DNA from: Verrucomicrobiota bacterium
Lineage (GTDB): Bacteria > Verrucomicrobiota > Kiritimatiellia > SS1-B-03-39 > UBA6053
DNA: 41,787 nucleotides
Assembly (NCBI GenBank): GCA_020831625.1
Contig: JAFIGD010000045.1
Location: 1 to 41,787 of the forward strand
Reading direction: 5' to 3'
Made by a program: the position numbers and the translations under genes. Position 1 is the stretch's first letter, and every line of letters starts with the position of its first letter. Below are positions 16,219-20,591 of this stretch, in pieces. The notes under the pieces were generated by a model. The model was given only the letters and a program-made list of their open reading frames with translations, was not told the origin of the DNA and did no database searches.

Positions 16219-17286
16219 ATGAGCCTGGAAGACTGCCGCAAAAAAATAGACAGCCTGGATCGGGAGATCGTCCGGCTTTTGAACGACCGGATCCGCACCG
16301 CGATGGAGATCGGCCGTTTGAAGCAGGAGAGCAACGCCCCGGTGTATGTGCCCGCGCGGGAGCAACAGGTGTTTGAGAAGGTGATGCGGCTGAACGAGGG
16401 TCCGATGTCGGACGCGCATGTGCGGGCGATCTATCGGGAGATCATGTCGGCGGCGATTTCGATGGAAATGGAGTCCTCGGTTGCGTTTCTGGGGCCGGAA
16501 ACGACGTACACGCACCAGGCGGCGCTGTCGAAGTTCGGTCAGAGCCTGCGCTATCTCGCCTGCGAGACCATGGAGCAGGTCTTCGACGAGGTGGAGAAGG
16601 GCAATGCGCAGTACGGGGTGGTGCCGATTGAGAACAGCATCGAGGGCGGGGTGACCCCGACGCAGGACCGCTTGACCCGCACGCCGCTGAAGGTGGTGGC
16701 GGAGATTTATCTGCCGATACATCATTGCTTGATTGTGCAGCCGGGCTGTGCGTCGCCCGCGAAAATTTACAGCAATCCGCAGGCGCTGGGGCAGTGCCGG
16801 GGCTGGCTGAGTTCGCATTTTCCCGACGCGGAGATTCTGCCGACCCGCAGCACCGCCGGTGCGGCCTCGCATGTGCTGGAGGATCCGGGCGCGGCGGCGA
16901 TCGCCTCGCGGCTGGCGGCGGAGCAGAACGGGCTGGAGGTGTTGCACGAGAACATTCAGGACATCGCCGGAAACTGTACCCGCTTCCTGGTGCTGGGCAA
17001 GACCTACGGACCGCCTTCGGGCAGGGACAAGACCTCGATTTTCTTCGGCGTGGCCCACAAAACCGGGGCGCTGTATCATGCTTTGGAGAGTTTGCAGCGC
17101 GCGGGCCTCAATTTGACCAAAATCGAGTCGCGGCCCAGCAAGCAGCGGGCCTGGGAATATACGTTTTTTGTGGATCTGGAGGGGCACGCGGACGATCCGG
17201 CCGTGAAGGCGGCACTGGACGAGCTGGCGGCGCACTGTGTGGAATTAACCATTCTGGGATCGTATCCCGTCGCGTTCAGGAGCTGA
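16219..17286 (+). CDS. pheA: bifunctional chorismate mutase / prephenate dehydratase
   Basis: The product is 355 residues in three parts. Chorismate mutase (about 1-85) has the helical pattern CRKKIDSLDREIVRLLNDR. Prephenate dehydratase (about 92-270) has AFLGPETTYTHQAAL, VVPIENSIEGGV and NCTRFLVLGK. The C-terminal ACT domain (about 275-350) has HKTGALYHALESL and the ESRPSK motif that binds phenylalanine for feedback inhibition. The AGGAAGG ribosome site is strong. The enzyme turns chorismate into phenylpyruvate. Confidence 0.96.
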   Translation: MSLEDCRKKIDSLDREIVRLLNDRIRTAMEIGRLKQESNAPVYVPAREQQVFEKVMRLNEGPMSDAHVRAIYREIMSAAISMEMESSVAFLGPETTYTHQAALSKFGQSLRYLACETMEQVFDEVEKGNAQYGVVPIENSIEGGVTPTQDRLTRTPLKVVAEIYLPIHHCLIVQPGCASPAKIYSNPQALGQCRGWLSSHFPDAEILPTRSTAGAASHVLEDPGAAAIASRLAAEQNGLEVLHENIQDIAGNCTRFLVLGKTYGPPSGRDKTSIFFGVAHKTGALYHALESLQRAGLNLTKIESRPSKQRAWEYTFFVDLEGHADDPAVKAALDELAAHCVELTILGSYPVAFRS

Positions 17287-17290
17287 TGAT

Positions 17291-18379
17291 ATGCCGCTGA
17301 TGCCCAAACCCGGTCTGGACTCCCTGATGGTGTATGAACCCGGCCGACCGCTGGAGGAGGTTGCGCGCGCGCACGGTCTGGCGCCGTCGGAGCTGGTGAA
17401 GCTGGCGTCGAACGAGAACGCGCTGGGGCCGAGTCCGAAGGCGGTCGAGGCCATGCGGAACGCGGCATCGAAAATGCATCTGTACCCCGACGGCGGCGCG
17501 TTTTATCTGCGCGGGGCGCTTGCGGAAAAGCTCGGGATTCCGGCGGATCATTTGTTGTTTGGAAACGGCAGCAATGAGATTATCGAATTTTTGGGGCATG
17601 TTTTTCTGGGGCCGGGCACGAATCTGGTGATGAGTCAGGCGGCGTTCATTATCTACAAGCTGGTGGCGAACAGCTTCGGAGCCGAGACGCGGATGGCACC
17701 GATGAAGGATTTCACTCATGATCTGGACGCGATGCTGGGGTTGATCGACGAGCAGACGCGGCTGGTGTTTGTGGCGAATCCGAACAATCCCACCGGAACC
17801 CGGGTGGACAATGCCGCGCTGGACGCGTTTTTGGACCGGGTACCGGAGCATGTGCTGGTGGTGTTGGACGAGGCCTATGTGGAACTGTTGCCGCCGGTGG
17901 AACAGCCGCCTTCGCTGGACTGGGTGAAACAGGGACGGCAGGTTCTGGTGATGCGCACCTTTTCGAAGACCTACGGTTTGGCGGGCATCCGGCTGGGGTA
18001 TGCGGTGGCGCGGCCGGAACTGCTGGGGCTGCTGAACAAATTCCGTCAGCCGTTTAATGTCACCGCCATGGCGCTGGCGGCGGCGCAGGCGGCGCTGGAG
18101 GACGAGGCCTATGTGGAGCGGACCCGGGACCTGGTGCGGGAGGGGCTGGCGTATTTTGAAGCCGAATGCGCGGCGATGGGGCTGGAGACGGTGCCGTCGG
18201 TGGCGAATTTTCTGCTGATCAAAACCGGGGCGGGGCGGAAGCATTTTGACGCGCTGATGTCCCGGGGCGTGATTGCGCGTCCGATGGATGGATACGGGTT
18301 GCCGGCGTGGCTGCGGGTGACGGTGGGGACCCGCCCTGAAAACGAGCGGTTTATTGAGAAACTGAAGGAGATTTTATAA
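17291..18379 (+). CDS. hisC: histidinol-phosphate/aromatic aminotransferase
   Basis: The product is 362 residues, a class I/II PLP aminotransferase. Motifs are LASNENALGPSP, NPNNPTGT, and the PLP lysine K226 in TFSKTYGLAGIRLGY. AGGAG lies eight to nine bases before the ATG. Placed between pheA and tyrA, it probably serves phenylalanine and tyrosine transamination as well as, or instead of, histidine; this is the classic position of hisHb in the aromatic supraoperon. Its stop overlaps the next ATG by one base (TAATG). Confidence 0.93.
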   Translation: MPLMPKPGLDSLMVYEPGRPLEEVARAHGLAPSELVKLASNENALGPSPKAVEAMRNAASKMHLYPDGGAFYLRGALAEKLGIPADHLLFGNGSNEIIEFLGHVFLGPGTNLVMSQAAFIIYKLVANSFGAETRMAPMKDFTHDLDAMLGLIDEQTRLVFVANPNNPTGTRVDNAALDAFLDRVPEHVLVVLDEAYVELLPPVEQPPSLDWVKQGRQVLVMRTFSKTYGLAGIRLGYAVARPELLGLLNKFRQPFNVTAMALAAAQAALEDEAYVERTRDLVREGLAYFEAECAAMGLETVPSVANFLLIKTGAGRKHFDALMSRGVIARPMDGYGLPAWLRVTVGTRPENERFIEKLKEIL

Positions 18380-19911
18380 TGGAGTGTGTGGCATTGCTGG
18401 GGTTGGGTCTGATGGGCGGCAGCGTGGGGCTGGCATTAAAACAGGGCAAGGCGTCCCTGAAGGTTCGGGCGTATGCGCGGCGGGAGGAGACCCGGGCGGC
18501 GGCGCTGCGGCTGGGAATGGCGGACGAGGTGTTTGACGATCCGGCTGAGGCGGTTCAGGGCGCGGATTTGGTGATTGTGTGTGTGCCGGTGTGCAAAATT
18601 CCGGAACTGATCGCGGCTGCGAAGCCGGGGCTGAAGTCCGGAGCGGTGGTGACCGATGTGGGGAGCACCAAGGCTTGGCTGGCGAATGAAGTGCGTGAGG
18701 TTTTGGCGGGCAGCGACGTGGTGTTTGTGGGGAGTCATCCGATGTGCGGCAGTGAGAAAACCGGGCTGGAGGCCGCGTGTGCCGGATTGTACAACAAGGC
18801 GGTCTGCATTGTGTGTTCGGATGCCGAAAGCCGGTCGGTGGCGTGGAAGGTTACGCATTTCTGGAGCGGGCTCGGGGCCCGGGTGGTGGAAATGGATGCG
18901 GTCAAACATGATGAAATCGCGGCGGCGACGAGTCATGTGCCGCATTTGACCGCGACGGCGGCGGTGTTGGCCACGCGGGGCGAGGTTGCAGACCTTCGGG
19001 ATTTGATCGGGCCGGGGTTCCGGGACACCACGCGGGTGGCGGCGGGATCGCCGGAGATCTGGCGGGATATTGTACAGAGCAATGCGGACGCGGTGTTGAA
19101 GGGTCTGAAGTCGGTGCTCGATGCGGTTCAGGAAATGGTTGGGGTTTTGGAGGCGGGGGATTTCGCGGGAGTGGAGCGTCTGCTGGCGAGGGGGGCGGAG
19201 CGCCGGAAAGCGCTTTGTGATTGTGCGGACCCCAAAACGGTGGAGGCTCCGGCGCGGGTGGTGGCGATTGACGGGCCTTCGGCTTCGGGAAAATCCACGG
19301 TGGCCCGCGGGGTGGCGAAGGCCCTGGGCGCGCTGTATGTGGATTCGGGGGCGATGTACCGGGGAATGACCTGGAAAGTGCTGCGGGCCGGCGTGGATCC
19401 GGAGAACGAGGAGGCGGTGCGGGAGGTGATGCGGGACTCGACCTGGAGTTTTGAGACGGTGGACGGCGCGGTGCGCTTCACGATTGACGGGGAGGATCCG
19501 GGCGAGGAGATCCGCGGGGAGGCGGTGCGCGACACCGTGAGCTATGTGGCGCGGATTCCGGAGGTGCGGACCTTTATTGTGGACCGCATCCGCGGGATGC
19601 GGGGCATGGGGAAACTGGTGGTGGAGGGACGCGACATCGGAACGGTGGTGTTTCCGGACACGGCGTGGAAATTCTATCTGGATGCCGATCCCGATGAGCG
19701 GGCCCGGCGGCGGAACGCGGAATTGATCGCCACCGAAAGCGGCACGTCGGTGGAGGCGGTGCTGGCGAATCTGAAGATGCGGGACCACATCGACAGCACC
19801 CGCAAAACCGCGCCGCTGCAGGTCGCGCCCGGGGCGGTGGTGGTGGATACCACGCATTTGACCCTGGAGCAGGTGGTGGAGCAGATTTTGGGGCGGATAA
19901 GAGAGAGTTGA
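18379..19911 (+). CDS. prephenate dehydrogenase - cytidylate kinase fusion
   Basis: The product is 510 residues in two enzymes. TyrA (about 1-280) shows the NAD loop LLGLGLMGGSVGLALK, TDVGSTK, GSHPMCGSEKTGLEAA, and ATSHVPHLTATAA. From residue 294 a complete cytidylate kinase follows: VVAIDGPSASGKSTVARGVA (P-loop 299-306), YVDSGAMYRGMTWK, VEGRDIGTVVFPD, and DADPDERARRRNAE. No stop lies between them. A GGAGG 11 bases ahead of an in-frame GTG at 19258 falls exactly where a free Cmk would begin, so separate Cmk could also be made. In the known supraoperon pheA-hisH-tyrA-aroF-cmk, aroF (EPSP synthase) lies between these two; here it is missing. Confidence 0.93.
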   Translation: MECVALLGLGLMGGSVGLALKQGKASLKVRAYARREETRAAALRLGMADEVFDDPAEAVQGADLVIVCVPVCKIPELIAAAKPGLKSGAVVTDVGSTKAWLANEVREVLAGSDVVFVGSHPMCGSEKTGLEAACAGLYNKAVCIVCSDAESRSVAWKVTHFWSGLGARVVEMDAVKHDEIAAATSHVPHLTATAAVLATRGEVADLRDLIGPGFRDTTRVAAGSPEIWRDIVQSNADAVLKGLKSVLDAVQEMVGVLEAGDFAGVERLLARGAERRKALCDCADPKTVEAPARVVAIDGPSASGKSTVARGVAKALGALYVDSGAMYRGMTWKVLRAGVDPENEEAVREVMRDSTWSFETVDGAVRFTIDGEDPGEEIRGEAVRDTVSYVARIPEVRTFIVDRIRGMRGMGKLVVEGRDIGTVVFPDTAWKFYLDADPDERARRRNAELIATESGTSVEAVLANLKMRDHIDSTRKTAPLQVAPGAVVVDTTHLTLEQVVEQILGRIRES

Positions 19912-19970: not shown

Positions 19971-20468
19971 CTATTCCGTAAAGAATTCACGGACCGCCTC
20001 CGCCCGGGCGCGGAAGATTTTTTCGAGTTGGGGTTTGAAGAAATGCCGGTGGCCGATGCGGCATCCGTAAATTTTATAGCGGACTTCGTCGAGGATAAGG
20101 GTGCCGTTGTTTTGTGTTTCAAAACGGTGGGTGTGTATCCAGGCGCGGTACGGCCCTTTGAGCATGGTGTCGGTGAATCCATGGGGTGGGGTCACGGAAT
20201 CAATCTTCGCAATCCATTTCAGAGGGATTCCCATGACCTGAAGTCGATAGCTGAAGACATCTCCGGGTGACATGATTTCAGGAAACGGCGGTTCAATCCG
20301 CATTTTTTGCCCGGGTGGCGTGATTTTACCGAGATTTGCGGGCCGCTGAAAAAAATCAAACACTTCTTCAAGCGGGCGGGGGACCCATTGGGCGGCATTG
20401 AGCAGGCGGTACCCATCTTCAGCGGTGCTGAAAGACAGTTTGAAGGGCGGGGAATCAGGCGTGTTCAT
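19971..20468 (-). CDS. SRPBCC-fold protein (polyketide cyclase/START-like)
   Basis: The product is 165 residues. The N-terminal pattern NAAQWVPRPLEEVFDFFQRPANLGKITPP is typical of small SRPBCC proteins that bind a hydrophobic ligand in a helix-grip pocket; the ligand is unknown. The start MNTPDSPP at 20468 was preferred because the domain starts soon after; a longer open frame to 20549 has no family support. No Shine-Dalgarno is seen. It converges on the tyrA·cmk gene. Bases 20469-20644 upstream hold two TTTCCGA/TCGGAAA palindromes. Confidence 0.75.
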   Translation of the reverse strand: MNTPDSPPFKLSFSTAEDGYRLLNAAQWVPRPLEEVFDFFQRPANLGKITPPGQKMRIEPPFPEIMSPGDVFSYRLQVMGIPLKWIAKIDSVTPPHGFTDTMLKGPYRAWIHTHRFETQNNGTLILDEVRYKIYGCRIGHRHFFKPQLEKIFRARAEAVREFFTE

Positions 20469-20591
20469 GATGATGCATCGCGCATACACGAAAAAACTTA
20501 ATGGATTCTTATCCTGAAACGGCTTATCCGGCACCGGCTTCAGGAGCATTCAGACCGGATCCGCGTTTCCTAACGCTTGATGCGCCGTGGT

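Follow-up and report, generated by a model that had tools for sequence, protein, structure and literature searches.

A TyrA·Cmk fusion protein in one Kiritimatiellota family, probably formed when the intervening aroA was displaced

An aromatic-pathway operon in the 41,787-nucleotide stretch of DNA analyzed here (the window) raises the question of how TyrA and Cmk came to be encoded by one reading frame, and what became of the aroA gene that separates them in relatives. The gene, at 18379–19911 (+), is a single 510-codon frame with no internal stop (ORF reading, Pfam, class scan and alignment), and, as the original prediction had it, the ORF and the Pfam and NCBIfam matches agree that it encodes complete TyrA and Cmk domains with a short linker between them. 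The predicted upstream order, pheA-hisC-tyrA·cmk, is also borne out by ORF, Pfam and NCBIfam assignments: pheA (chorismate mutase-prephenate dehydratase-ACT) lies at 16219–17286 (+) and hisC (histidinol-phosphate/aromatic aminotransferase) at 17291–18379 (+), and the hisC stop overlaps the tyrA ATG (TAATG), which is preceded by AAGGAG. The gene convergent with the fused gene, at 19971–20549 (-), has a marginal match to Polyketide_cyc (23.4 bits, at the cut-off of 23.4).

The TyrA domain (residues 1–279; 18379–19215, +), delimited by Pfam, structure comparison and a model, is composed of a Rossmann PDH_N segment (residues 16–170; 9.7e-32, 110 bits against a cut-off of 26.5) and a PDH_C dimerization domain (residues 174–267; 4.1e-16, 59.6 bits against 22), and with both domains (PF02153 and PF20463) above their curated cut-offs the protein qualifies as a TyrA. 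The Cmk domain (residues 293–508; 19255–19902, +), delimited by Pfam, alignment and the model, matches Cytidylate_kin above its cut-off (residues 295–508; 7.4e-69) and scores 216.3 bits against the cut-off of 135.55 for the cmk equivalog TIGR00017, and with an intact P-loop it belongs to the (d)CMP kinases. The P-loop GPSASGKST is invariant across the fused proteins, as are TyrA residues H120, R215 and R219 (the GSHP histidine and the FRDxTR arginines), which align with solved TyrA chains and which we take to be catalytic. Values of dN/dS between close pairs are 0.07–0.19 for TyrA and 0.03–0.10 for Cmk, indicating that both domains are under purifying selection. The linker (residues 280–292; 19216–19254, +; alignment and model) differs in sequence among relatives, contains no visible AroA remnant, and is predicted to be disordered. 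In an AlphaFold model with a mean pLDDT of 92 the two domains are confident and values below 50 occur only at residues 285–290; the pTM of 0.67 suggests that TyrA and Cmk have no fixed relative orientation. A whole-genome search of the organism's own assembly (G000; 4.89 Mb, 96% complete) finds no second tyrA (PDH_N) or cmk, which disposes of the concern that another complete gene makes this copy redundant.

The gene order from which the fusion is derived is preserved in relatives. Most of the unfused relatives read have tyrA-aroA-cmk, with pheA and hisC ahead of it wherever they are visible on the contig, and G579, the only unfused genome of the family, keeps pheA-hisC-tyrA-aroA-cmk with overlapping junctions (ATGA for the aroA start and tyrA stop, GTGA for the cmk start and aroA stop). 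Two other lineages lack aroA at the locus and have tyrA and cmk adjacent and in the same frame: in G178 the tyrA stop TGA is followed by TGC and then the cmk ATG, and in G059 some 20 codons separate the TGA from the cmk ATG. Matches in both genomes spanned the two domains, and they were rejected as fusions on account of this in-frame TGA; a single stop-codon change would fuse the genes in either one. G178 has another AroA elsewhere, and a PF00275 search of G059 (94% complete) found MurA only and no AroA. G059 also carries a stand-alone chorismate mutase gene (107 aa; L135:6185-6505 (-)) before hisC, replacing the full pheA. These arrangements mark TyrA·Cmk as a fusion of supraoperon neighbors, and the intact order in relatives and G579 agrees with the earlier proposal that loss of aroF (here called aroA) from a tyrA-aroF-cmk arrangement joined the outer genes.

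The substrate of TyrA is prephenate or arogenate and that of Cmk is CMP or dCMP, which it phosphorylates; no pathway intermediate is common to the two reactions. The protein is most likely bifunctional, with two independent active sites predicted from its sequence. Because the motifs are conserved and both domains appear to be under purifying selection, it would most likely form a TyrA dimer to which two Cmk domains are flexibly tethered, with TyrA and Cmk each performing its usual reaction, and the tether itself is in all likelihood a by-product of deletion and not a means of regulation. An alternative is that the fusion is adaptive, with the tether co-regulating tyrosine synthesis and CMP phosphorylation or keeping the two matched, through allostery or a fixed stoichiometry for instance. 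Its retention across at least three genera, and the presence in the class of other Cmk fusions with operon neighbors, speak for such a role; the lack of a common intermediate, the variable, predicted-disordered linker with the pTM noted above, and the two lineages that lack aroA at the locus and yet remained unfused all argue against it, and we regard it as unlikely. That the tether couples tyrosine synthesis to CMP/dCMP phosphorylation and has been kept by selection for that coupling, along the lines of the link to pyrimidine nucleotide supply first proposed, seems a little less likely again.

Similarly doubtful is the suggestion that free Cmk is also made from the same message. The motif on which the original prediction relied is present: GGAGG (19242–19246) stands 11 bases before an in-frame GTG at 19258 (proposed internal start, 19242–19260, +), and this valine codon is GTG in eight of the ten fused genes. 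Motif counts and comparison of the fused genes nevertheless weigh against initiation here. The 11-base spacing is long; of the 64 valine codons in the ORF 52 are GTG, and GGAGG occurs in it 11 times. The same GGAGG-GTG pairing is seen again at 19426, and in six ORFs together 4 of 228 in-frame start-like codons are paired with GGAGG. In the nine other fused genes no GGAGG precedes the start of Cmk, so that the motif at this site is confined to the organism's own genome, and G184 has no ATG, GTG or TTG within the 40 codons before Cmk. The sequence at 19258 is accordingly judged to be a chance match in GTG-rich coding DNA, and production of free Cmk, as distinct from the presence of the motif, finds no support.

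The search for aroA elsewhere in the genome, suggested at the outset, locates it at G000:C30:18804-20003(-), outside the operon, with MurA at C32. In a PF00275 search of 44 genomes, most of the unfused ones have a class-typical AroA flanked by tyrA and cmk; in the fused genomes the operon aroA is gone and an AroA of about 400 aa is located elsewhere, and operon-type aroA is present in no fused genome examined. The fused-family AroA is about 22–28% identical to the operon type, about 30–36% identical to its counterparts in other classes of the phylum, and 45% identical to two Bacteroidales AroA proteins (Phocaeicola and Parabacteroides), with 37% or less to the others compared full-length. In a tree of 54 AroA sequences it groups with three from Bacteroidota (100/100), on a long stem branch, and the operon-type sequences, including those of G579 and G578, form a separate clade (100/100). 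The best model for it is TIGR01356 (aroA), with a score of 274.9, slightly under the curated cut-off of 287.25; together with the tree, this score is the basis for its presumed function as AroA. The aroA of the operon thus appears not merely to have been lost, as the original prediction held, but to have been displaced by a Bacteroidota-like copy elsewhere; absence from the operon stands, and the account of loss was incomplete. The donor and the direction of transfer are inferred from a tree with three sequences from Bacteroidota and a long stem. No context is conserved across most of the fused genomes among the neighbors of the acquired gene. Relocation of the original aroA within the genome would also account for a copy elsewhere, but its low identity to operon-type AroA and its clustering with Bacteroidota make this very improbable.

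When 346 genomes of the class were scanned with the fused protein, a single frame matching both TyrA and Cmk turned up in 10 of the 11 genomes that make up the organism's own Kiritimatiellota family, across three genera, and the matches listed include no fused genome outside that family. The fused relatives among named genomes are Kiritimatiellota or PVC records, including Kiritimatiellaeota bacterium B1221. In G580 a contig end truncates the fused gene at residue 41, and only the part beyond the contig end is absent. Matches in Omnitrophota (L047 and L050) also spanned both domains, and these were rejected as fusions, the genes being adjacent but unfused. In quick trees of Cmk and of TyrA, which included ten fused genes, the fused genes form one clade each with G579 as sister (SH-aLRT 97 and 94), and because of this a single origin of the fusion is most likely, in the ancestor of most of the family once the G579 lineage had branched off. 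That a stop between two separate genes was lost to a sequencing or assembly error, for example by a hidden frameshift near residues 280–293, can be dismissed, as ten genomes share the one-frame fusion, one of them (G184) assembled as a single 4.4-Mb contig, and aroA is also missing between the two domains.

We therefore favor, at a probability of roughly 85%, a single fusion in the family ancestor that produced a TyrA·Cmk protein, most likely bifunctional, with aroA displaced and the tether a by-product. In the proposed history a stand-alone aroA would have been acquired by horizontal transfer, making the operon aroA dispensable, and an in-frame deletion would then have taken out the tyrA stop, the whole of aroA and the start of cmk. 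We infer that the foreign aroA was gained before the operon aroA was lost; no genome with both types was encountered among those examined.

Related fusions are known. In Pseudomonas and relatives and some Burkholderia, TyrA is joined to its downstream neighbor AroF (AroA; PRK14806), as it is to a neighbor here, within a pheA-hisH-tyrA-aroF-cmk supraoperon (PMC1173090, Song et al. 2005); the partner in the Kiritimatiellota protein is instead Cmk, with AroA absent, and the protein scores 215 bits against the 902 required by PRK14806, over residues 2–284 only. The AroA·Cmk fusion (PRK11860) likewise joins the Cmk N-terminus to an aromatic-pathway neighbor, with AroA in the place that TyrA takes here, and the match to PRK11860 is 177.6 bits against 943, over residues 287–508 only. 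PanC·Cmk (PRK13477) and Cmk·Der (PRK09518) are also Cmk fusions but have other partners, and in Cmk·Der another order; the panC-cmk and cmk-der NCBIfam models each match one domain of the fused protein, far under the cut-off. A parallel for the displacement is known from P. syringae, where the operon aroF has decayed in association with a stand-alone aroF that was probably laterally acquired; there the AroF domain of tyrA-aroF is truncated, whereas here the operon has lost the whole of aroA and its former neighbors have been joined (PMC1173090).

Cmk is found in other composite frames within the class. In G268, from another family, a 670-aa frame (L098:1444-3453 (+)) combines AroA (20–439) and Cmk (454–667) in an AroA·Cmk fusion, and the two are unfused in its genus-mate G587. 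In G029 a 445-aa frame (L120:143-1477 (-)) combines Cmk (7–217) with a PlsC-like acyltransferase domain (252–378), and cmk frames of similar length (445–459 aa) recur in its genus, g4. No TyrA·Cmk fusion was found in the open-licence PMC literature, no TyrA·Cmk model is among the NCBIfam matches of the fused protein, and the structures searched hold no record of the pairing. We judge that fusion of supraoperon neighbors is of a known kind and that the pairing of TyrA with Cmk is probably new.

The locus documents almost stage by stage how a fusion protein can result from horizontal gene replacement: a sister genome retains the ancestral operon, an aroA of foreign type lies elsewhere, the neighbors are joined, and two unfused lineages are without aroA at the locus. 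Annotation libraries would gain a missing TyrA·Cmk architecture. The case also carries a caution that a gene fusion need not prove a functional partnership, because its simplest cause here is the removal of an intervening gene.
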